Position numbers and translations under genes: made by a program. The notes beneath the pieces are model-generated. The model was given only the letters and a program-made list of their open reading frames with translations, was not told the origin of the DNA and did no database searches. A stretch of 64,000 nt of DNA, taken from NCBI RefSeq assembly GCF_028553805.1, contig NZ_CP067140.1, forward strand, positions 868,001 to 932,000, in the 5' to 3' direction. This document shows positions 2,153 to 14,123 of this stretch, piece by piece. The first letter of the stretch is position 1. Each line of letters begins with the position of its first letter. Source of the stretch: Paracoccus saliphilus (GTDB lineage Bacteria > Pseudomonadota > Alphaproteobacteria > Rhodobacterales > Rhodobacteraceae).

Positions 2153-2842
2153 ATGAGCCATCCATTCAACCCATCGTTCACGCACCCCTTGCCCAGCAAG
2201 GCGACCCGGAAACCGCCGGCCCGGTCACGCGCCAGTTCGCGCGGGCTTCTCCCCGGCCAGACCCCGCACGATCCGCGTCCCCGACTGCGCTATTTCGAGA
2301 GCAAACGCGAACAGGATGTTCTTTACCAACTTCTCGCGCGTCCGGATGTCGTAGACATCTGGGACCAGCCACCCCCGGTAGAATATCGGGCCGCCGAGGG
2401 CCGGCGCAAGCCGCATACATTCGATTTCCTGATCACGCTTGCTGACGGCCGCCGCATCGCGATTGCCGTCAAGCCCGCGGCCATTGTTGAACGCCATGGC
2501 TTTCGTGAAACCCTGAAGCGGATCCGGGCCGCGACCCCGCTCAACTTCGCCGATGAGGTCGTGCTGATAACGGAACAGCGCTACTGCCCTTCCGCCGCAC
2601 GCAACGCCCAAAAGCTGCACGACTTTCGCCGCACTCCGGATCCCGAAGCCGACCGGATCATTGCAGAACTGACCCGTGACATGTCTGGCCCAACTCCGAT
2701 TGCCGATCTTGTTCGGCGATCGGGGCTCGGTGGCCGGGCCTTCCGCGCGGCCTTCCGCGCCATCTTCGCCGGCATTCTGCGCGCAGTGGATAGCGGCGAC
2801 ATTCTTCCTTCCACCCGCATTACGCCGGAGGTTGTCCAATGA
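2153..2842 (+). CDS. tnsA: TnsA-like transposon endonuclease
   Basis: A 229-residue protein matching the Tn7 TnsA layout: an N-terminal restriction-endonuclease fold and a C-terminal helical/winged-helix part (residues about 150-229, IADLVRRSGLGGRAF). The core shows Glu49 (YFESKREQD), the DQPPPVEY strand, Asp91 (HTFDFLI) and Lys107 (IAVKPAA). In TnsA the catalytic set is Glu, Asp, Gln/Glu and Lys, the fourth being two residues before the lysine; here that residue is Ala105. TnsA nicks the transposon 5' ends to allow cut-and-paste. The gene ends inside the tnsB start (ATGA). The start at 2153 has only a weak ribosome site. A better one (AGGAGA) precedes an out-of-frame GTG/ATG at 2104-2110, which may be a leader. 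Confidence 0.8.
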   Translation: MSHPFNPSFTHPLPSKATRKPPARSRASSRGLLPGQTPHDPRPRLRYFESKREQDVLYQLLARPDVVDIWDQPPPVEYRAAEGRRKPHTFDFLITLADGRRIAIAVKPAAIVERHGFRETLKRIRAATPLNFADEVVLITEQRYCPSAARNAQKLHDFRRTPDPEADRIIAELTRDMSGPTPIADLVRRSGLGGRAFRAAFRAIFAGILRAVDSGDILPSTRITPEVVQ

Positions 2843-4998
2843 CCCGCCATTTCCGTCTTTCTGAAATCGACTGCCTCGAAATTGCAGGGGCAGAGCACCG
2901 GCTGCTGACCAGCGATCGCAGCGGCTCGATCTGGTCGCGGCTCGACGATTCGTCCGTCTGCCTGTCGTTTACCAGCGATGATTTCATGCGGCTGCTGTCA
3001 CGCCCCGACGTGCGACTCAAACGCGGGGCCTTCTCGGATCAATCCGCGTTTCGTCGATTGCGCTGCGATATCGACTATGTCCAAACCATGCCTCCGGAAC
3101 AGCGCGCAAAGATATTGTGGCAAGCCACATGTGCCAGAACGTTTCTCGAAGCCGAGGCGCGTGGCGAAACCAATCGCTCCGAACAGGTGGTGGAAAAGAT
3201 TATACCCATCCTGGAACGCCGCGTGAATGACATCGAGGAAAGCGGTCAGGATGTCGGACGCAATCCGCGCGCGGGTCAGCTGTTCGAGCGACGCCGTTTT
3301 CCGTCTACACGCTGGCTGCTGCAATGGGTCAGAATGTATGAGGCTGGCGGTCATAGCCCGTTGGTTTTTCTGCGCAAGCGTCGGCCCGACCTTTCTACCC
3401 GAAAGCTGATAGCGGAGGCCGAAGCCGTCCTTGCCGAATGCGTGGTCGGCTATCTTGATCGCAACGAACCCACGCAGCAACAGATCGTCGAGAATGTCTG
3501 TGATCGCTTTGCCAAAATCAATCGCGGTCGATCGACCGCAGGCATCGCGCCCTTGCCCGTACCATCGGCCCGGACGGTGCGGCGCCGCATCAAGGCTCTT
3601 GATCCGTTTGAGGTCATCGCACAGCGCAAAGGGATCGATGCTGCCCGCCGCAAGTTCGGTTTCTACGAGGACGGACTGAGTGCCGACTATCCATTGCAGC
3701 GTATCGAGATGGACGAGTGGCAGATCGACATTTGTTCCCTTTTGGGTGAAAGTGGTGCGCTGGACGGCTGGCCAGGCGAAGATCGGGCAAAATTTGAGGT
3801 CGGCAGACGCTGGATCTATGTTGCCCTTGATTGCGCGACACGCTGTGTGCTTGGGTTCCGTATTGTGTCGACGCCGAATGCCGATGATGCAATTCGAACT
3901 TTGAACCTGATCATCCAGGACAAAACCCCCATCGCCGAAGCGTCAGGCTGTCAAACATCCTGGGACCAATGCGGCGGTATTGGCGTTCTCGCGACCGACC
4001 AGGGCTCAGCCTTCGCCGCCGAGAAGTTCCGGATGGCGGTCGCCGATCTCGGCGCAACCTATGAGGCACCACCTGCCGGGGTCCCAAAACTCCGCGGCCG
4101 AATTGAGCGTCTATTCCGTACTTTCGGTCAACAGCTCGCGCCGATGCTGATCGGCCGCACCTTCGGTAACCCAGTGGAACGCGGCGATTATCCATCGGAA
4201 CAATGGGCGGCTCTGACTGATGACGAATTGGCACAGATCCTTACGCTGTTCATCGTCGATATCTACCACAATTCACCTCATGCCGGCCTCAAGGGAGAGA
4301 CCCCGGCGAACGCCTGGAAACGGTTGTCGGCCGAGCAGGGGGTAACGCCACCACCCGATGCCAATCATCGCCGTGCCGTGTTTGGTATTCCGCTCAACCG
4401 CAAACTCGATCGACATGGGGTGCGAGCCTTCGGGATCAACTATACCTGCTCGCAACTGCAGGAAGCTTTACTACGCGGGGCAAGTGGCGAGATTCCTATT
4501 CGGGTAGATCCCGAGGATTTGACGTATATTTCCATCTGCCTCGGCCATGAATGGTTCAGCGCCGAGGCCGTTTCGCATGCCGTATGGGGCCTGTGTCTCA
4601 GCGACTGGCTGGAGATGGTGCGCGAGCTGCGGACGCGGTTCCGAGAGGAGGCGGTCCTGTCCGAGCAGATCATTCGGGATACCCGGAAAAAAATCTTTGC
4701 GATCGATGCCCGTGCCCGGCAATTGCGCCGCGTACAACCGCCGCATCTCACGGCCGAAGGATTGGACCGGGAGGAACGGCAGCTCTTTACAGGGCTGCGC
4801 ATTGGTCCCGAGGGTTCGGCCGCGACGGGTGATCTCGAACGGCCAAACGACCGAAACCGGCCCAAACCAGATGATCTTCTTGGCGATGTCATCACCCCGG
4901 ATGCACCACCCCCTCAACCCATGTCTGGCGGCGCTTCGTTCGGAGAAAATATACGCGAGGTTTCCGATGACGGCGACGAATGGACCTTCGATGACTGA
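2839..4998 (+). CDS. tnsB: TnsB/TniA-type DDE transposase
   Basis: A 719-residue transposase that carries out 3'-end cleavage and strand transfer. The retroviral-integrase fold lies at about residues 285-430 with Asp292 (IEMDEWQ), Asp387 (LATDQGSAF) and Glu423 (LRGRIERLF), giving a D-x94-D-x35-E triad. The N-terminal 280 residues should contain the end-binding HTH domains. After the core comes a Mu-type C-terminal beta-barrel region and an acidic tail (SDDGDEWTFDD), as expected for contact with the TnsC-type ATPase. It starts within the last codon of tnsA and overlaps tnsC by 8 nt. It looks full length and intact. Confidence 0.92.
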   Translation: MTRHFRLSEIDCLEIAGAEHRLLTSDRSGSIWSRLDDSSVCLSFTSDDFMRLLSRPDVRLKRGAFSDQSAFRRLRCDIDYVQTMPPEQRAKILWQATCARTFLEAEARGETNRSEQVVEKIIPILERRVNDIEESGQDVGRNPRAGQLFERRRFPSTRWLLQWVRMYEAGGHSPLVFLRKRRPDLSTRKLIAEAEAVLAECVVGYLDRNEPTQQQIVENVCDRFAKINRGRSTAGIAPLPVPSARTVRRRIKALDPFEVIAQRKGIDAARRKFGFYEDGLSADYPLQRIEMDEWQIDICSLLGESGALDGWPGEDRAKFEVGRRWIYVALDCATRCVLGFRIVSTPNADDAIRTLNLIIQDKTPIAEASGCQTSWDQCGGIGVLATDQGSAFAAEKFRMAVADLGATYEAPPAGVPKLRGRIERLFRTFGQQLAPMLIGRTFGNPVERGDYPSEQWAALTDDELAQILTLFIVDIYHNSPHAGLKGETPANAWKRLSAEQGVTPPPDANHRRAVFGIPLNRKLDRHGVRAFGINYTCSQLQEALLRGASGEIPIRVDPEDLTYISICLGHEWFSAEAVSHAVWGLCLSDWLEMVRELRTRFREEAVLSEQIIRDTRKKIFAIDARARQLRRVQPPHLTAEGLDREERQLFTGLRIGPEGSAATGDLERPNDRNRPKPDDLLGDVITPDAPPPQPMSGGASFGENIREVSDDGDEWTFDD

Positions 4999-5953
4999 AT
5001 CTCTGAACATTGGCATCCCGCAGCGCGTTCTCGCGCTGCGATCCATCTTCTCGAGTAATCGGGCCTATCGGCAATTCGAAGAGCGTTTCCGCTACCTGCT
5101 GGAGCGACGGCGGGCAGAGATTGCAGCCGGAGTTGTAGCCGAGGCCCGCTGCATCGCACTGATAGGTGCCTCCGGCAGCGGCAAGACCACTGCGGCGCGA
5201 CACCTGTTCGCGGTGCAGCCGGATCTGGTTCTGGAGGAGCCGGAAACCCCGCGCATGGAGGTCGCGAGCCTGCCGGTGCCAACACCGGCAACCCTGAAAT
5301 TCGTCGGTCAAACCACGCTTACGGCACTCGGTTTCCCGCTTCGCCGCGAAAGAACCGCCCAAACCATCTGGGATATGGTGAAAGATCACCTCGCCGCCCG
5401 CCAAACGCTGTTCTTGCATTACGACGAAGCGCAGGACCTTTCGGCTCATCAGACTCCAAAGGAGCTGACCTCGGTCGTCAACACCCTGAAGTCACTGATG
5501 CAGCACCCGGTCTGGCCGGTTGGTCTGATCCTGACCGGTACGGCGGAGTTGAAAACCATCATTAACCACGACGCCCAGTTGGCACGCCGGGTCTACCCGA
5601 TCGAGTTTCCCCGGCTCGATCTTGTGCTCGATGCCGAGCGCGTCCGGCAATTGCTCTGCCTCTATTCCCGGCGTGCGGATATGACGCCGTGCAATGAAGT
5701 CGGCACAACCGAATTTGCCGCACGGCTCATCCATGCCGGGGCGCGGGAGTTCGGGTTGCTGATCGAACTGGTTATCGCCGCATTGGAAGAGGCGATGCTG
5801 TCCGGTGCCGAGACTTTGGAAATCCTTCATTTCACGCGGATGTTCGGTAAGCGCGCCGGCTGCATCGACGGCCTCAACCCATTCGTAGCGGGCGATTTCG
5901 AACGAATTGACACCCGAAAGTTGCTGAATCACGGAGAGTGCGATGTCCAATAA
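4991..5953 (+). CDS. tnsC: TnsC/TniB-type AAA+ transposition regulator
   Basis: A 320-residue AAA+ ATPase of the TniB/TnsC group. Walker A is GASGSGKTT with Lys65; Walker B is LFLHYDEAQDL with Asp145-Glu146; sensor 1 is LILTGTAEL. It connects TniQ-marked target DNA to the TnsB transposase and carries target immunity in related systems. The start at ATG 4991 (MTESLNIGIP) overlaps the tnsB stop; the frame is open much further upstream but that part is antisense noise over tnsB. It overlaps tniQ by 11 nt. Confidence 0.92.
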   Translation: MTESLNIGIPQRVLALRSIFSSNRAYRQFEERFRYLLERRRAEIAAGVVAEARCIALIGASGSGKTTAARHLFAVQPDLVLEEPETPRMEVASLPVPTPATLKFVGQTTLTALGFPLRRERTAQTIWDMVKDHLAARQTLFLHYDEAQDLSAHQTPKELTSVVNTLKSLMQHPVWPVGLILTGTAELKTIINHDAQLARRVYPIEFPRLDLVLDAERVRQLLCLYSRRADMTPCNEVGTTEFAARLIHAGAREFGLLIELVIAALEEAMLSGAETLEILHFTRMFGKRAGCIDGLNPFVAGDFERIDTRKLLNHGECDVQ

Positions 5954-7808
5954 ATATGCGGCGTCGGAAGGCGGGCTTATGCCCTTGGCATTGACGAGAC
6001 AAATGTTCGAGCGCGAAACGCCCGTCTCCCTTGTTTCCGGGATCGCGCAAAGGAACTTCTATGGATCGGCACGGGATTTCTGCCTTGATCTCGGACTTGA
6101 CTGGTTCGGGATTATCCGGGGAGAGCAGAAAGAAGTTTCGCGGGTCGCTCAAATCGCCGGGGTGGATAACAGCAACCTTCAAAGATGGACATTTAGAAAT
6201 GTCGGAAAGTTACGTGTTCGGATTGGGCGAGAGATGGGGACGATCAGGACCGTCTGCCGATCAATTCCGAGGGTTTGTCCAGCATGCATCAGGGCGTCGG
6301 TCGATCAGCACGGCTTTAGCGGGGCATTTCTTCGGGCGGATTGGCAGATTGTTTCGATCCGAACATGCGACATCCATCATGTCCCGCTCATTCGGCTACC
6401 CTCCAGAAAGCACTCGCAGGAAAACTACGACATTGCGGCAATCATCCGAGAGCGTTTCGATCTGATCACGGGTCATATCGATATACATCGTCAAGAGAGC
6501 TCGCTGGAAACTTATTTGCGGACACGTCTTCGCGGTACGCCCCATGCTGGTTTCTGGCCTGACTGCTTCACCCTGCCTGTGGTGGCACGCGCCGCGGAAT
6601 CTCTCGGTGGCCGCATTCTATATGGTACGCAAGTAAAGTTCACCCATCTGTCCGATGACATGTTGCATGCCGCCGGCGCCAAAGGGTTTGATATATTGTC
6701 TGGCGGTGCGGACGCCCTCAAATCATGTCTTGATGATCTGACACGTGAATCGTCCGACAGCCAGAAGTTTCATCGGCGAGACTATGGAATGTTTCTGACA
6801 TGGCTGTCATCCAGCCGTGCTGCGCCGGAAATGAAACTGCTCAAATCGGTGGTGCGAGATCATATCATCGAGAGTTTTCCGATCAAGTCAGGGGCGATCG
6901 TCCTTGGGACGGTGGTCAAACAACCTCGCTTGCTCAGCGTCACTGATGCCGCCAGGGAACTCAGGATGAAGCCTGACCAATTCCTCAGGTTCCAAATGGC
7001 GAACGGGGAATCAGTCTCAACTGGGGCGGTTGAACGTCAAGGCGTGCGCGTCGATTTGCTTCCGGCACTCAAGGATCAAATAGATGACCAGATTACGATT
7101 AAGGAAGCAATGCGAATCTTGAACTGTTCCTTTGACCTTGTTCAGAAACTTGCCGATTGCCGCATCCTTCCGTTCCACACGCGTGGGGGCAAAGCCCGCT
7201 ACATCAGCAGAAGAGACGCACACGAACTTCTCCGTGCCGTCGAGGACCTTCCAGCTACCAGGCAACACGGAAATTTCCTCACGGCCGCGCAGGTTCGAGA
7301 ACGGATTGCATGCAAAGCATCGGAAATATTGACGCTATTCATGCAGGGTGAACTCTCCCCGACCTATCGCGACAAGCGGATCAAGGGGATCAACGCGCTA
7401 TTGGTGGATCTTGAACAGGTGCGATCCAAAATTACCAACCGGGATCCGAAGTTTATCCTATTCACAGAAGCACTTGGAATCCTTCGGCTTCGAAGTGCGG
7501 AGCTTCATTCCCTGGCTTCGATGGGGTATCTGAGAATGACATCGCGCCGGGATCCCGACAGCGGCTGTATGCGCAAGGTCATTGAAGCCGAAACATTGGA
7601 CAGATTTCGAGCGCGTTTTGCTACGCTTGTTATGCTGGCTGTAGAGCTACATCGACGCTCGCCCCATCTTCGCAAGGACCTTGAAGCGTTGGGCGCACTC
7701 CCAGTGTGTTCAGGGAGCGACCTGCCGCAATTCTATGAGCGATCAAAGCTTCCCAACCTGACATTACTGTTCTCACGTTGGAGTAAGACGTCTGCGTCAC
7801 CTGCGTAG
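5943..7808 (+). CDS. tniQ: TniQ/TnsD-type target-selection protein
   Basis: A 621-residue protein. The TniQ domain is at residues about 12-155, with zinc ligands Cys112-Pro-Ala-Cys115 and Cys142-x-x-His145 (CDIHHVPL). The longer C-terminal part (about 330-600) holds what look like repeated small DNA-binding units (LLSVTDAARELRM, ITIKEAMRILNC, LTAAQVRE, ILFTEALGILRL), typical of TnsD-like proteins that read a specific attachment sequence. It lacks any linked Cas genes. It is the last gene of the tns operon and overlaps tnsC. The target site it recognises cannot be read from this window because the element ends are not resolved. Confidence 0.85.
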   Translation: MSNKYAASEGGLMPLALTRQMFERETPVSLVSGIAQRNFYGSARDFCLDLGLDWFGIIRGEQKEVSRVAQIAGVDNSNLQRWTFRNVGKLRVRIGREMGTIRTVCRSIPRVCPACIRASVDQHGFSGAFLRADWQIVSIRTCDIHHVPLIRLPSRKHSQENYDIAAIIRERFDLITGHIDIHRQESSLETYLRTRLRGTPHAGFWPDCFTLPVVARAAESLGGRILYGTQVKFTHLSDDMLHAAGAKGFDILSGGADALKSCLDDLTRESSDSQKFHRRDYGMFLTWLSSSRAAPEMKLLKSVVRDHIIESFPIKSGAIVLGTVVKQPRLLSVTDAARELRMKPDQFLRFQMANGESVSTGAVERQGVRVDLLPALKDQIDDQITIKEAMRILNCSFDLVQKLADCRILPFHTRGGKARYISRRDAHELLRAVEDLPATRQHGNFLTAAQVRERIACKASEILTLFMQGELSPTYRDKRIKGINALLVDLEQVRSKITNRDPKFILFTEALGILRLRSAELHSLASMGYLRMTSRRDPDSGCMRKVIEAETLDRFRARFATLVMLAVELHRRSPHLRKDLEALGALPVCSGSDLPQFYERSKLPNLTLLFSRWSKTSASPA

Positions 7809-7996
7809 CGAACATCAGCTACGCGACGGGTACAATCGAGGCGCAGAGAGAGAGCTTCACCGTCGGACACGTCGACGGGCAAATAGCGGCAATAGCCGTT
7901 GCAAGTAACACCGCGCCTGCTGCGACACGCGCCTGTGAACCTTTTGCTGCGCTCAGTGTGGAAGTGATCAACCCTTGGGATCTCGACCTTTAGGCG

Positions 7997-8386
7997 TCAG
8001 ACTGGGCGATGCGTAGTGCCGCGTTCTGATCTTTGCCGCCTGAGGGCTTCGAATGCGCCCATAGCTCTTGCGATCGCTACTTCTGCCGCGTGCAAATCGA
8101 AGCCTAATCTCGCTTCCGGATGGCCCGTGAGGTCGAGCATAGCCTCAAATACCGCGTCGCATTCGCGGGCGAGGCACAGGAGATGATAACCGCTAGGGCT
8201 TCCTGAACCGTTCATCCAGGTTCTGGCGCTCCGGTCACTGGCGCCCGTCCAACGCATAATTGTCTTCACGGCCACACCAGTTCCACCCAGTTCGCCGCGC
8301 AAGGCATTGCTGATCTGCACGATATACTCGGTCTCTGATGGTGCACGCTGCATTCTAGGAAGTTTTCTACCGTTATTGGGAAGCAT
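7997..8386 (-). CDS. Putative DNA-binding protein next to the recombinase module
   Basis: A 129-residue protein starting at ATG 8384-8386 behind AGGAG. The middle (VAVKTIMRWTGASDRSARTWMNGSGSP) reads as a helix-turn-helix: helix, turn at GAS, recognition helix. The C-terminal part has YHLLCLARECDAVFEAML, and the protein ends in an arginine-rich tail. It is divergent from the serine recombinase with only 65 bp between the two starts, so it may control that operon. No precise family is recognised. Confidence 0.6.
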   Translation of the reverse strand: MLPNNGRKLPRMQRAPSETEYIVQISNALRGELGGTGVAVKTIMRWTGASDRSARTWMNGSGSPSGYHLLCLARECDAVFEAMLDLTGHPEARLGFDLHAAEVAIARAMGAFEALRRQRSERGTTHRPV

Positions 8387-8451
8387 TCTTCTGCTCCTTT
8401 CGGGTTAATGCTGTTCTGTGAATTACGCAGCGCAAGCCACTAGGGCAGGCA

Positions 8452-10023
8452 ATGATCATTAAGTGGAACAACGGCAGTGACGAACTCCCTGCGACCGAGC
8501 TGCAGGGCATACCGGCTGCTGAGTATGTCCGCATGTCAACCGAACATCAGCGGTATTCGACCGATAACCAGGCTGCAGCTATTCGTAAATATGCTGACGA
8601 ACGCGGTTTCCGCATCGTGCGTACCTACGCTGACGAAGGACGGAGTGGCCTCACCACTGGTGGCCGACCCGCTCTGCAGAAACTCTTCGATGACATCGAC
8701 AACGACCGCGCCGACTATCGCGCCTTGCTTGTCTACGATGTTAGCAGGTTGGGCCGGTGGCAGGATACCGATGAGGCGGCCAGCCACGAGCTCCGTTGCC
8801 GGCGTGCTGGCATCTCGGTTCATTACTGTGCCGAGCAGTTCGAGAATGACGGCAGCGTCGGTTCCTCAATTATCAAAACCGTTAAGCGCGCAATGGCAGG
8901 CGAGTACAGTCGCGAGTTGTCGGTCAAAGTCTTCGCAGGACAATCGAACCTTATTCGTTTGGGTTTTCGTCAGGGCGGTACCGCGGGTTTTGGGTTGCGA
9001 CGCCTTCTCGTAGATCAGCATGGCGTGGCCAAAGAGCAGCTTGAACAGGGGCAACAGAAGAGCATTGCCACCGATCGCGTGATCCTCGTTCCCGGCCCTG
9101 AGGCCGAGGTGAAAATCGTGCGAGAAATTTACCAACTATTCGTGGAGGGCAGCAAAGAATCGGACATCACGAATCTACTGAATTCTCGTCATATCCTCAC
9201 CGATTTAGGCCGACCGTGGACACGCGGAACAGTTCATCAGCTTCTGACAAACGAAAAGTATATCGGTAACAATGTTTGGGCGCGGACCTCGTTCAAATTA
9301 AAGAATCAACATGTGTCCAACCCCCGTGAGTCTTGGGTTCGCGCGGACGGTGTGTTCACGCCGATTGTCGATCAAGAATTGTTCGATAGGGCGCAGGCGA
9401 TCATCACAGCGCGTGCACAGCATATGAGTGATGAAGCCATGCTGGAGATCCTGCGAGAAATCTTCGAACGCAACGGAATGTTGTCCGGACTGATCATCGA
9501 CGAGATCGAGGGAGCGCCTTCAAGCAGCTCTTACCGTACCCGCTTCGGCGGGCTGCTCCGGGCTTACGCTTTGGTCGGGTTCTCACCCGATCGGGATTAT
9601 CGCTATATCGAGATCAACCGGAACCTGCGCGCACTTCATCCGACGGTGGTTGGGGAAGTTCTTGCCGGTTTGCGCCAGGCAGGGGGAACGGTCACCCAGG
9701 ATCCGTTAACAGACATCCTGACGATCAATGACGAATTCACCGCCACGATCGTTATTGCCCGGTGTTTTCATACGTCAGCGGGCTCCTTGCGGTGGAAGCT
9801 GCGGCTCGACACCGCGTTGAAACCTGATCTGACCGTCGCTGTGCGCATGGATGCGGACAATCATGAACCCCATGATTATTATTTACTACCGAGGTTGGAC
9901 ATGAGAACCGCGCTGCTCAGGCTGAGCGAACACAACGGTTTATCGCTCGACGCGTATCGCTTCGATTCATTGGGTTGTTTTTACGCTATGGCCGCGCGGC
10001 AGCCGTTTCCGAGGGCGGCATGA
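8452..10023 (+). CDS. Serine recombinase (resolvase plus recombinase domains)
   Basis: A 523-residue recombinase. The resolvase domain has the catalytic Ser29 in AEYVRMSTEHQ, the conserved arginines in DVSRLGRWQD and the GRPALQKLFDDI helix. The recombinase (PF07508-type) domain follows at about 180-270 (GFGLRRLL, TNEKYIGNNVWAR). The C-terminus lacks an obvious Cys4 zinc ribbon and continues into a domain I do not recognise (residues 330-523). Its stop codon overlaps the start of the next gene (ATGA), and that gene overlaps a third, so this recombinase is co-translated with two ParB-like proteins. This is not the order of a simple phage integrase or a Tn3 resolvase. Confidence 0.88.
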   Translation: MIIKWNNGSDELPATELQGIPAAEYVRMSTEHQRYSTDNQAAAIRKYADERGFRIVRTYADEGRSGLTTGGRPALQKLFDDIDNDRADYRALLVYDVSRLGRWQDTDEAASHELRCRRAGISVHYCAEQFENDGSVGSSIIKTVKRAMAGEYSRELSVKVFAGQSNLIRLGFRQGGTAGFGLRRLLVDQHGVAKEQLEQGQQKSIATDRVILVPGPEAEVKIVREIYQLFVEGSKESDITNLLNSRHILTDLGRPWTRGTVHQLLTNEKYIGNNVWARTSFKLKNQHVSNPRESWVRADGVFTPIVDQELFDRAQAIITARAQHMSDEAMLEILREIFERNGMLSGLIIDEIEGAPSSSSYRTRFGGLLRAYALVGFSPDRDYRYIEINRNLRALHPTVVGEVLAGLRQAGGTVTQDPLTDILTINDEFTATIVIARCFHTSAGSLRWKLRLDTALKPDLTVAVRMDADNHEPHDYYLLPRLDMRTALLRLSEHNGLSLDAYRFDSLGCFYAMAARQPFPRAA

Positions 10024-10916
10024 TGGGAGCCCGGCCTGCACAGCGCGTCGAGTGGATCCCAATTGAGCGCATCAATGTCCTCAACCCTCGCCTCCGGAAT
10101 AAGCGAGTATTCAAGGAAATTGTTGATAATATTTCAAAAATCGGGCTAAAACGGCCAATTACCGTGACCCGTCGGATGGAAGCTGGCGGTCCCTATTATG
10201 ATCTCGTTTGTGGACAAGGACGGCTCGAAGCCTATCAGGCACTTGGCCAGCAGGATGTACCTGCGCTCGTGGTTACTGCGGATGCCGAAGATTGCATGAT
10301 AGCGAGCCTGGTCGAAAACTGTGCCCGCCGTCAGCACAAGGCAATCGACTTGCTGCGAGATATTGGTGCCATGCGCGAGCGCGGTTATTCGTCAGCTGAT
10401 ATTGCCAGAAAAACCGGCTTGTCGACGGAATATGTCAATGGTGTGGCTCATTTGCTCGAGAAAGGAGAGCAACGCCTCCTGAGTTCGGTGGAAGCCCGAA
10501 CGATCCCTATTAGCGTGGCAGTGGAAATCGCGGAGGCTGGCGACCACGATGTCCAGCGAGTGTTGCAGGACGCCTATGACAAGGGGCTTCTGCGAGGCAA
10601 GCGTTTGTTGGCAGCCAAGAAATTGGTCGAGACTCGTCGTCGTCGGGGCAAGGGGCTTACTGCACAAAAATCTTCTGCAACGAAGCGCTTGTCCACCGCT
10701 GCTTTGATGAAGGCTTATCAGGAGGAAGCCGAGCGCAAGCGCGACATGATCCGGCGAGCCAACGCTGCCCGCGACAGGTTGGTTCTGATCATCGAAGCCT
10801 TCAGGCGGCTTTCACATGACGAGACCTTCATAGGAATACTTGAGGATGAAGGGCTTGCGATCATGCCTGAGCGCATCGCCACACGTTTGGCGGAGGCCCG
10901 GGAGACACGGATATGA
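10020..10916 (+). CDS. ParB-like protein coupled to serine recombinase (first)
   Basis: A 298-residue protein with a ParB/Srx-type N-terminal domain (IERINVLNPRLRNKRVFKEIVDNISKIG is the entry; CGQGRLEAYQALGQ is the ligand-loop motif) followed by an HTH (YSSADIARKTGLSTEYVNGV) and a helical C-terminus rich in Lys and Arg. The start is taken at ATG 10020 because it overlaps the recombinase stop and follows GAGGG; an ATG at 10023 is equally possible. There is no ParA. In partition proteins this domain binds CTP and spreads on DNA; here the operon suggests a role in assembling or directing recombination, which is inference. Confidence 0.75.
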   Translation: MMGARPAQRVEWIPIERINVLNPRLRNKRVFKEIVDNISKIGLKRPITVTRRMEAGGPYYDLVCGQGRLEAYQALGQQDVPALVVTADAEDCMIASLVENCARRQHKAIDLLRDIGAMRERGYSSADIARKTGLSTEYVNGVAHLLEKGEQRLLSSVEARTIPISVAVEIAEAGDHDVQRVLQDAYDKGLLRGKRLLAAKKLVETRRRRGKGLTAQKSSATKRLSTAALMKAYQEEAERKRDMIRRANAARDRLVLIIEAFRRLSHDETFIGILEDEGLAIMPERIATRLAEARETRI

Positions 10917-11806
10917 CAAGGAAACAATCCGCACCTCAGGTGAAAATCGGCTTCGAGGAAACCAGCCTGCGGATATCGATTGATGCCATACTCCCGCTGC
11001 ACGAAATCTCTGAGAGAGTTCGAAAGTCGGTCAAATATAGTCAAATCGCCGCGTCGATTGCGGAGGTCGGCATCATCGAGCCCCCAGTTATCGTTCGTGA
11101 CCGTGATGATAGGGATCGGTTCCATCTCCTCGATGGTCATTTACGTATCGACATCCTTAAAAATCGCGGTGAAGCTGAGGTTGTCTGCCTGATTGCACTT
11201 GATGATGAAGCTTTTACTTACAACAAGCGTGTCAGCCGGATCGCGATCATCCAAGAGCATAAGATGATTTTGAACGCGATCCGCAAGGGAGTTTCCGAGG
11301 AACGTCTGGCGCGAGCGCTTAATGTCAATATCGCGAATATCCGCATGAAGCGGAACCTGCTTGTTGGTATTTGTCCCGAAGCAGCCGAGCTTCTACGTGA
11401 TAAACACGTCCCGATTACTGTGTTCACGGAACTGCGCTACCTGAAGCCCATGCGGCAGATAGAGGCGGCGCAATCGATGATTACGATGAATCGCTACTCT
11501 ACAGGCTATGCCCGCTCTCTGGTTGCATCGACACCAGAGGACCAGTTGGTTGAAGGTCGCGAGCGACGCCCGCGCGGTTTGACGGAGGAGCAAATCGCGG
11601 TAATGCAGCGCGAATCGGAAAATCTAGACCGAGAGTTCAAATTGGTCGAGCAGAGCTATGGCGCAGATCAGCTCGACCTGGTTCAGGCTGTTGGTTATGT
11701 GAACCATTTGCTGGGAAACGCTCGCATCGTCAGGCATCTTGCGCAGCATCATGCTGATATCCTCACCGAATTACAGAAGATTGTAGACATGTTGGAGGCC
11801 GCATGA
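10913..11806 (+). CDS. RepB-C-like ParB-family protein coupled to serine recombinase (second)
   Basis: A 297-residue protein starting inside the previous stop (ATGA at 10913). It has a ParB-like N-terminal domain (ISIDAILPLHEISERV, LLDGHLRIDILKNRG) and a helical C-terminal half with PITVFTELRYLKPMRQIEAAQSM, which resembles the C-terminal domain of RepB plasmid partition proteins. It is a divergent partner of the gene before it, not a recent copy. Together the three genes form a closed unit with no repA or repC, so plasmid replication is unlikely. Confidence 0.72.
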   Translation: MTRKQSAPQVKIGFEETSLRISIDAILPLHEISERVRKSVKYSQIAASIAEVGIIEPPVIVRDRDDRDRFHLLDGHLRIDILKNRGEAEVVCLIALDDEAFTYNKRVSRIAIIQEHKMILNAIRKGVSEERLARALNVNIANIRMKRNLLVGICPEAAELLRDKHVPITVFTELRYLKPMRQIEAAQSMITMNRYSTGYARSLVASTPEDQLVEGRERRPRGLTEEQIAVMQRESENLDREFKLVEQSYGADQLDLVQAVGYVNHLLGNARIVRHLAQHHADILTELQKIVDMLEAA

Positions 11807-12388
11807 GGTGGCCAGAAGTGCCATCTTATTCTCTGAATAGGGAAATTACTCTGCACTTTGTTGGCCCGGTTTTCATGTGTCAGGATTACCGGAAACCCCG
11901 CAGCGGCAGCCCATTCCGTGTTTCGCCCTGGCGGTAGCTGACGGCACATAGGCCTCAAGACGGATCAGCTTCTACCACTATATCAGCTCGATACGGGCCA
12001 GAAAAGACAGGCGGCTTAACTCTGCCTTGTCATGCGCTTCGCTATCGGCTTTGCGGGATGGCGAAGGAAACTTTTCTTGGCGAGAAAGGAAGAAATAGTG
12101 CGCAAAGCCTCGGCTAACCATTTGATTTTTCGTGTTTTGTGAGGGCGAATTAGGTGGCAATTCACAATTTGGAAAGAGGCAGATAGTTCTGCCCTTTTTA
12201 TCGGTGATTTTGCCTCAATCGCATCTGCATATGATAGCCAATACATTGATATTTCGACTGTTCTATGTGATTCGCGCTACCTAGGGCCAAGAGGTCGTGC
12301 CTCTTGGGGCGGAAACCGGAAGTTCGCTGCAAGTGCTGCTTTCAAAAGATAGACTTGGCAAAGCGGCCGTTTGGTTCACGGAACCCGT
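11807..12388. other. Non-coding stretch after the recombinase-ParB operon
   Basis: No convincing gene. It starts with an imperfect inverted repeat, GGCCAGAAGTGC (about 11811) against GCACTTTGTTGGCC (about 11855), right after the last ParB-like gene. This could be a recombination site of the module or the end of a mobile unit. Further on it is AT-richer than the flanking operon, and a terminator lies at 12178-12199. Confidence 0.45.
12178..12199 (+). terminator. Intrinsic terminator
   Basis: GGCAGA (12178-12183) pairs with TCTGCC (12188-12193) over a TAGT loop and is followed by CTTTTT. It may end transcription from the recombinase-ParB operon about 370 nt upstream. Confidence 0.55.
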
Positions 12389-13302
12389 TTACATAGTATC
12401 AGACGGTTTCTCGGAGATGTCGCGCGTCACTGCGGCCACCATCTTACCGTCAGCGAGTCCCTCATTTACTGCCGCACACTTCTCTCCCACGCGCGCCACG
12501 AGTTCCTCGAAGTTCACCGCTTTGCCAGCGACGGTCTTACGAAAGGCGCTTCTTTTGACCTTCTTGGTCTTGTCTTTCTCGAGCTTTCTTGGACGAGCTG
12601 CATTTACAAGAACATAGATACCTGTGTGGGACGAAGGCTCAAACAGATACTGCTTCGAAAGCTGTTCACCCGGAGTGTTGACCAGCTCATCCCCAGTCCA
12701 ATGCTTCATATCGGCAAGCTTAATTTCGACCGACACCTTCCCTAAAGCATCAACTCTTGAGTGCATCCTGAGATCAGGCCGCTTCTCACCCGCAACTTCT
12801 TGCTCCCTGACAACGGTGTAGTAGCGTTCCCCCACGTCTCTCAGGCGGGCGGCAAGCCAATTTCTTAAATCGCCTTCTTTCGCTTCGCCCCGCCGGAAGA
12901 AGGCGCTTTCATCATCGTCGGAAGTATGCAGCCGCTCGAGGAGCGTCTCTAGATGCGTTTGGCAGAGCTTCCTGAACTCTTCCACAGTCGATGGTGGCTT
13001 GGACTGATCGTTGAGAAACTGAATTGCTTCATCAGGTAAGATTTCCGGCCTTCTCCCCGCTCCTCGCTTCATCAACTCGATCTGATACAAGAAAGTGTCT
13101 CGGTAGCTCGAAAGTACCTTTGACTTTGCAAGTCTTTCAAATGCACTGACAACATCGGGTGTTTGAATCGCCGCCAACATATTGATGTAGTTTCGCCTGT
13201 TGCTCTCCGCGTGGTCCTCTTTGCCCGGCGAGTAGACAGTCTCGTGCTTCACATCCTTCTCAGGCGGCCATGCCAAGTATGATGCCTGAACCAGCCACTC
13301 TA
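12389..13302 (-). pseudogene. C-terminal fragment of a NACHT/STAND-type defence protein with PD-(D/E)XK nuclease end
   Basis: The minus-strand frame is open from the IS5 boundary; it begins EWLVQASYLAWPPEKDVKHE at the junction, and a TTG at 13276 is only a nominal start. The pattern YLAWPPEKDV...SPGKEDHAES, a helical stretch, then RPDLRM (Asp168 counted from the TTG), VSVEIKLAD (Glu184-x-Lys186) and EQLSKQY is what I associate with the C-terminal ends of large NACHT or NTPase defence proteins carrying a PD-(D/E)XK nuclease. The N-terminal NTPase part is missing: the reading frame is cut exactly at the IS5 target TA, and no continuation was seen beyond the insertion elements. It is therefore most likely a dead remnant. 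Confidence 0.65.
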
Positions 13303-13365: not shown

Positions 13366-13737
13366 ATGAGCAATCTCTTCTGGCTGACTGACGCGCAGAT
13401 GGCGCGCCTCGAACCTTACTTCCCGAAGTCGCATGGTCGCCCCCGGGTGGATGACCGACGTGTTCTGAGCGGGATAATATTCATTAATCGCAACGGCTTG
13501 CGGTGGTGCGATGCACCGAAGGAATATGGCCCGGCGAAGACACTCTACAATCGCTGGAAACGTTGGAGCGACCGCGGGGTCTTTGCGAGGATCATGATGG
13601 GCTTGGCCGCCGAAAGCACGGACCACAAGACGATCATGATCGACGCGACATATCTGAAAGCGCACCGCACGGCCTCGAGCCTGCAGGTTAAAAAGGGGGG
13701 CGAAACCGCCAGATCGGGCGCACAAAAGGCGGCATGA
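13366..13737 (+). CDS. IS5-family transposase, OrfA
   Basis: A 123-residue N-terminal transposase part (DUF4096-like start MSNLFWLTDAQMARLEPYFP, with the first catalytic Asp in MIDATYLKAHR). It overlaps OrfB in the -1 frame. The run AAAAAGGGGGGC at 13690-13701 lies just after the last base where the -1 frame has a stop (TAA at 13689), so a programmed -1 frameshift there would give the full DDE protein. Confidence 0.88.
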   Translation: MSNLFWLTDAQMARLEPYFPKSHGRPRVDDRRVLSGIIFINRNGLRWCDAPKEYGPAKTLYNRWKRWSDRGVFARIMMGLAAESTDHKTIMIDATYLKAHRTASSLQVKKGGETARSGAQKAA

Positions 13738-14123
13738 ACACCAAGCTGCATGCGGTCACAGATGCGAAGGGCCGCCCGATCCGGTTCTTCATGTCGGCGG
13801 GACAGGTGAGCGATTATACCGGCGCGGCGGCCCTGTTGGACGGCTTGCCGAAGGCGGATTGGCTCCTGGGGGACCGGGGATACGATGCCGGCTGGCTGCG
13901 AGAAGCATTGAAAGACAAGGGGATAAAGGTTTGCATCCCGGGTCGAAAGTCCCGCAAGAAGCCGGTGAAATACGACAAGCGGCGATACAAACGCCGCAAT
14001 CGGATTGAGATCATGTTTGGTCGGCTGAAGGATTGGCGGCGAGTCGCAACCCGATATGACCGCTGCCCGGAGACCTTCCTCTCCGCCATCGCACTTGCCG
14101 CGACGATCCTATTTTGGCTCTGA
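13734..14123 (+). CDS. IS5-family transposase, OrfB
   Basis: The 129-residue C-terminal DDE part: the second Asp in LLGDRGYDAGWLR and the Glu in RRNRIEIMFGRLKDWRR, the YREK-like signature of the IS4/IS5 superfamily. The natural product is probably the OrfA-OrfB fusion made by frameshifting; the ATG at 13734 is nominal. Confidence 0.88.
   Translation: MNTKLHAVTDAKGRPIRFFMSAGQVSDYTGAAALLDGLPKADWLLGDRGYDAGWLREALKDKGIKVCIPGRKSRKKPVKYDKRRYKRRNRIEIMFGRLKDWRRVATRYDRCPETFLSAIALAATILFWL

Follow-up and report, generated by a model that had tools for sequence, protein, structure and literature searches.

Large serine integrases such as SPbeta YokA, Bxb1, PhiC31 and TP901-1 combine a catalytic domain and an RD domain with a C-terminal part that holds a zinc ribbon with a coiled coil, and they are not known to need any partner beyond a small directionality factor. 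Here we describe a gene set in which a recombinase of this general type (Rec) is followed by two different ParB-family proteins, ParB1 and ParB2. It lies in a stretch of 64,000 nucleotides from Paracoccus saliphilus (C1:868001-932000 of a 4.62-Mb genome in two contigs), which is referred to below as the window. Rec and the two different ParB-family proteins form a genuine gene set that is widespread in bacteria and probably serves to rearrange or insert mobile DNA. Our preferred reading, with a probability of roughly 0.5, is a site-specific recombination module of mobile islands and plasmids in which the ParBs act as accessory DNA-organising factors.

Rec shares with the large serine integrases the catalytic and RD domains and the catalytic residues, and its predicted model matches them over residues 18-322. 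Among the CcrA, CcrB and CcrC recombinases of staphylococcal cassette chromosome (SCC) elements, CcrB is the best NCBIfam match of Rec (90 bits, residues 23-316), but this is far below the equivalog cut-off of 900 bits, and we know of no ParB pair in SCC elements. The ParB_N/RepB domains, the cytidine triphosphatase (CTPase)-type motifs of ParB1 and the Noc/ParB-like model of ParB2 recall ParABS, repABC and Noc/KorB; unlike ParABS and repABC, the window operon is without ParA, RepA and RepC, judged by open reading frames (ORFs) and family matches only, and the pair follows a recombinase. Transposons of the Tn5053 type are reportedly attracted to resolvase sites. The window module follows a tniQ gene, which resembles the arrangement of Tn7/Tn5053-like elements with a serine resolvase (tnsR/tniR), whereas here a larger two-domain recombinase stands with ParBs. 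Such elements with resolvases are reported in PMC8649781. In TIGR-TasA loci, according to PMC12045711, the ParB-like protein TasParB shares an operon with a DNA-binding protein that uses RNA; the partner there is the Tas protein, whereas here it is a serine recombinase.

The unit in the window consists of the following genes.

7997-8386, minus strand: divergent helix-turn-helix (HTH)-type protein, 129 amino acids, the HTH recognized by eye only.
8452-10023, plus strand: Rec, serine recombinase, 523 amino acids, with a catalytic domain at about residues 22-160 and a Recombinase/RD domain at about residues 218-320.
10020-10916, plus strand: ParB1, 298 amino acids from the ATG at 10020, Pfam ParB_N (PF02195) and RepB (PF07506).
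10913-11806, plus strand: ParB2, RepB-family protein, 297 amino acids, Pfam RepB, to which the precomputed Pfam annotation adds ParB_N.

Rec, ParB1 and ParB2 are co-directional and joined by ATGA overlaps at 10020 and 10913, as an earlier note on this stretch had described. Rec matches the Pfam families Resolvase (PF00239) and Recombinase (PF07508, E 1.3e-23), and its C-terminal part has no Pfam match. The active-site residue Ser29, which the earlier note had regarded as intact, and the remaining catalytic residues vary little or not at all among 41 aligned homologues; Ser29, Arg99 and Arg102 are invariant in alignment A5. The CTPase-type motifs GxxRxxA and ENxxR of ParB1 are invariant in 17 aligned sequences (alignment A7), and its sequence matches in PDB are Spo0J, Noc and KorB. 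The ENxxR motif is not retained in ParB2, whose predicted model resembles ParB/Noc. Neither ParB is a copy of the other, as the earlier note had said: they differ in their best phage-family matches and have weaker ParB matches in common. The operon of overlapping co-directional genes holds only Rec, ParB1 and ParB2, and thus no cognate ParA (RepA); no ParA, RepA or RepC was noticed among the ORFs and family matches near the module, where no search aimed at them was made. The HTH-type protein has no Pfam or NCBIfam match, and no PADLOC model matches it, Rec, ParB1 or ParB2. Operator palindromes between the HTH-type gene and rec appeared convincing by eye and were rejected, the best inverted repeat being no better than shuffles in any of 10 regions (0/10; 16.7-100% of 300 shuffles as good, depending on the region). 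On the opposite strand at 8603-8653, a Moco-II match from Rfam is sub-threshold (23.2 of 35 bits) and was taken as chance.

A survey of 385 alphaproteobacterial genomes delivered 27 Rec matches at E 1e-80 or better in 21 genomes, the window's genome counted. ParB1 and ParB2 stand behind Rec in all 20 recombinases of at least 55% identity (19 plus the window's), and the pairing is therefore not a matter of chance. Among the seven recombinases at 35-42% identity two have both ParBs (L106 and L117), one has a ParB1 piece at a contig end (L115) and four have no ParB (L105, L107, L114 and L116), so that the ParBs are not needed by the recombinase class as a whole. The earlier expectation that the three genes always travel together holds for the closer relatives, and recombinases commonly occurring without the pair, which would have spoken against it, were found only in the distant group (4/7).

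In all 69 tabulated loci Rec, ParB1 and ParB2 lie in this order on one strand. This is a chosen set: most loci were retrieved via ParB2 or Rec, and those lacking the pair were excluded (L105, L107, L114, L115 and L116, with no or partial ParBs), as were L091-L094, L113, L118, L127, L128 and L132 (mostly copies of, or from the same genome as, loci that were kept), the contig-end locus L017, and L164 together with other family loci not retrieved at length. A homologue of the HTH-type gene was detected by tblastn in 58 of the 69 and is divergent in 57, which agrees with its earlier assignment to the unit. In the window's family, 29 of 39 ParB2 matches were examined as loci (the remaining ten being the window's own and nine not retrieved); 28 of these loci have Rec and 27 a clear ParB1. 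L187 is interrupted by a contig end, and L164 (G387) is a broken copy whose Rec match stops at about residue 232 and which has no ParB1, with ParB2 and the RNA-like element described below retained. Relatives of ParB2 at E 1e-10 or better number 5,487 among 8,000 scored candidates, some of which may be other RepB proteins, and the window's family holds a match at E 1e-60 or better in 35 of 295 genomes, among them the window's own. The module is found on plasmids of several genera as well as on contigs of at least 2.5 Mb that are probably chromosomes (L011, copies in G532, G656, G570, G636 and G523, and the window's). A short, unannotated phage record (MT837206) matches both Rec and ParB2 along most of each protein; a single scan of viral contigs gave no relative.

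In many relatives parB2 is followed by a GC-rich element of about 130-220 nucleotides (for example L025:8889-9059), which extra hairpins lengthen to about 190-220 nucleotides in many copies. In alignment A2 (28 sequences, 30 pairs) 97.4% of the cells are paired, compared with 31-45% in slid controls; 17 pairs carry two-sided changes, with 83 such cells versus a shuffle mean of 23.1 (0 of 500 shuffles reach 83). Since G-U cells (45) far exceed A-C plus C-A cells (7), the covariation is as expected of an RNA read in the operon direction and not of a DNA palindrome, related sequences not being independent. Folded by itself, the copy in L103 does not surpass shuffles (z -0.39), so the case for an RNA rests on the covariation.

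A model built on the loci of A2 (R1) was used to find the element. It is present in 27 of the 29 family loci (of the remaining two, one is a partial match and one meets a contig end), in 12 of the 20 close modules of the class survey (L092, among the eight misses, ends soon after parB2) and in 9 of the 22 loci of a set in which two Paracoccus loci, L004 and L005, are nearest to the window. The last two sets share two pairs of loci, and L017 and L018 end early. R1 finds no match in the window (best 7.5 bits; best in its own genome 16.3 bits, E 1.1) nor in L004 and L005, and no local alignment of the window to the element rises above shuffles (49 of 200 as good). Among other loci taken as lacking the element, L009 and L010 align to it at the right place (5 and 2 of 200 shuffles as good), and L007, L008 and L031 elsewhere (0, 2 and 0 of 200). 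In four loci scanned against Rfam, L020, L025 and L027 gave no match and L089 4780-5110 only 12.5 bits versus a gathering cut-off of 40. The element is scattered over the Rec tree, a distribution that would suit an old part lost several times; change counts on this tree are approximate, as L124-L126 are mislabelled (these plasmids do carry the element), L017 is absent and the contig-end locus L018 was scored as without. Further copies lie behind C-terminal pieces of parB2 with no Rec in the retrieved stretch (L108-L112, probably decayed modules) or with neither Rec nor a parB2 piece in that stretch (L120 and L121).

Sharp junctions with changing flanks occur around closely similar modules. L189 and L191 have 4,094 bp in common at 93.6% identity with flanks that are largely different; one left flank is common to L189, L190 and L193 and another to L191 and L192, while L191 and L193 share about 1.2 kb on the right. 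In five pairs the shared part stops about 191-202 bases into the RNA-like element, at its last hairpin. In L195, L197 and L200 the left junction is exactly the same, at about 620 bp upstream of rec, and the DNA farther out differs; L197 and L200 are alike for 5.9 kb to the right of the module. G449 (L195 and L211) carries a 3.7-kb insert with a McrBC pair between direct repeats of about 166 bp after the element, the first repeat beginning at the last hairpin; in G590 the insert is missing and a WYL-type gene follows, and G453 aligns likewise. L100 and L113, from two genomes of one genus, are identical modules of about 4.37 kb that part abruptly in the middle of the element, with no mismatch over the first 4.2 kb compared and identity to about base 47 of the element; each right flank is present in only one of the two genomes. 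The Roseomonas plasmids were uninformative as a border test, their left break lying at an IS3-type gene (by eye) and their right break inside an integrase gene. The junctions would fit recombination at the ends of the unit, in line with the recombination or integration system suggested earlier; homologous exchange, and assembly error for short contigs, may have caused them instead.

Under the preferred reading Rec is probably a recombinase of the integrase or resolvase type that serves islands or plasmids. It would cut and rejoin DNA at sites near the module, with candidate sites to the left of the HTH-type gene and/or at the RNA-like element downstream of parB2, and may have made the observed junctions. 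ParB1 and ParB2, produced in fixed order by overlapping genes, would load near the same sites and gather or gate the recombining DNA, ParB1 possibly as a CTP-dependent clamp, and the divergent HTH-type protein probably controls expression. The earlier note had suggested that the pair may mark or bridge the sites or act as directionality factors, which are putative roles.

Several observations weigh against this reading. A 152-bp stretch of the left flank is still similar in L189 and L191, and in other pairs sharing stops earlier, near base 103 or 138-147 of the element, where plain fast change may be the cause. Left and right junctions share no single defined sequence, and the comparisons gave no attL/attR pair, att core or clean empty site. 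The element occurs once per module and never at two ends (10 plasmid records; 4 genomes). The repeats of about 166 bp could be shared promoter or operator DNA. In L100 and L113, both on short contigs, only the right side changed, because the 1.7 kb of left flank in L113 recurs unchanged at a contig end of the other genome. Five Sphingobium plasmids have about 4.7 kb of conserved DNA on the right side of the module, which is not an insertion point there. Concerning the enzyme itself, Pfam gave no zinc-ribbon match for its C-terminal part, and alignment of the Rec model with the listed integrase chains extends only to about residue 325.

Conservation of the right side in the Sphingobium plasmids would suit a stability module of plasmids or islands, in which Rec resolves multimers at a res-like site while the ParB pair marks or clusters copies, with no movement between sites. 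Its occurrence on plasmids of several genera and the membership of both partners in the ParB/RepB family point the same way. We nevertheless consider this explanation rather unlikely: several copies, the window's included, are on the probable chromosomes listed above, two Sphingobium plasmids have an annotated ParA-ParB pair elsewhere, the unit is without ParA (by ORFs and family matches; no dedicated search), and near-identical modules stand between abruptly different flanks. L124, L125 and L131 have a ParA gene in their annotated plasmid stretches, about 8-22 kb from the pair and not beside it.

The 4,094-bp block of L189 and L191, with both flanks largely changed, would be accounted for by a serine-recombinase transposon of about 4 kb that begins with the HTH-type gene, ends with the RNA-like element and moves alone. 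Around the first 31 loci no ORF family other than the four genes occurs in more than four loci, except an antisense frame in six, which agrees with so small a unit. In L197 and L200, however, the shared left junction together with 5.9 kb on the right implies that a larger unit moved, the left ends of the two groups compared show no obvious common terminal sequence, and the 152-bp stretch in L189 and L191 is again at odds with it; a transposon of this kind seems improbable.

PADLOC models (some of candidate systems only) match ORFs on both sides of the module, as might be expected if the operon were regulatory or linked to defence and Rec bound DNA without recombining it in practice. ORFs of 220-1300 amino acids within 7 kb of 49 chosen loci were compared; on the right, 73 and 75 ORFs gave 115 and 337 families, on the left 119 ORFs gave 98, and as these tallies are of families without member counts, the left/right comparison shows no enrichment. 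Conservation of the catalytic residues in the 41 homologues and the absence of a PADLOC match for the four proteins make this quite doubtful.

The structured RNA might instead be a working partner that directs Rec and the ParBs to DNA or is needed for synapsis. The RNA-type covariation (G-U 45 versus A-C 7 cells), its frequency in family and class-survey loci (27/29 and 12/20), its spread over the Rec tree and the junctions at or within the element speak for such a role. Against it, the window, its two Paracoccus relatives and others are without the element, whose transcription is predicted and which may be a 3' regulatory element; we regard the proposal as very improbable. Least credible of all, even with one observed junction falling inside the RNA gene, is a recombinase ribonucleoprotein system of Rec, ParB1, ParB2 and the structured RNA in which the RNA or its gene sets the joining site.

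Members of an abundant family thus retain a recombinase together with two ParB-family proteins and, in many cases, a structured RNA-like element. Should these parts cooperate, CTP-dependent DNA clamps would be linked to site-specific recombination, with possible new enzymes for genome engineering. If the RNA took part in recombination this would be categorically new; in the ribonucleoprotein case it would be a recombinase class with target choice set or gated by RNA and a CTP-type clamp, and the RNA-less copy of the window would be derived. Among the literature matches listed (titles and starts of abstracts) no paper describes the Rec-ParB1-ParB2 unit; subscription papers may do so.

The Paracoccus loci L004 and L005 allow the closest comparison with the window.

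7993-12018: block common to the window and L004, 93.9% DNA identity, its left bound being the end of the HTH-type gene.
About 11811-11868: inverted repeat, found among the compared loci only in the two Paracoccus ones and not fully paired there.

The block shared with L005 extends to 12172 at 93.3% identity. The earlier note had proposed that the inverted repeat might complete the unit; this was rejected, as it is not seen outside the Paracoccus copies and relatives have the different, RNA-like element at this place. The stretch 11807-11990 folds no better than shuffles. Because the window copy is without that element and stands beside a TnsABC-TniQ element, it may be reduced or re-housed.

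This neighbouring Tn7-like element, outside the conserved unit, comprises four genes.

2153-2842, plus strand: TnsA-like, Pfam PF08722, E 1e-7.
2839-4998, plus strand: TnsB-like transposase, Pfam rve (E 4e-5, below the rve cut-off) and Mu-transpos_C (E 6.8e-5).
4994-5953, plus strand: TnsC/TniB-like ATPase, Pfam TniB, E 1.8e-15, start uncertain (open frame from 4547).
5943-7808, plus strand: TniQ, Pfam TniQ, E 1.4e-12.

TnsB and TnsC of L004 and L005 are 75-93% identical to those of the window, while TniQ at the same place is only about 25% identical (window 5943-7808, L004 2351-4186, L005 3111-4943). The target-choosing gene therefore seems to have been exchanged while the Rec-ParB module stayed. 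In L004 the DNA 3' of the module corresponds to the last 80 residues of another TniQ (80% identical). Tni/Tns genes lie within the retrieved flanks of 8 of the 69 tabulated modules, and 61 have none. Downstream of the module in the window, an open frame of 295 amino acids (12389-13276, minus strand) has no Pfam or PADLOC match; it adjoins two short frames at 13366-14123 (plus strand) that by eye resemble a split IS5-type transposase.

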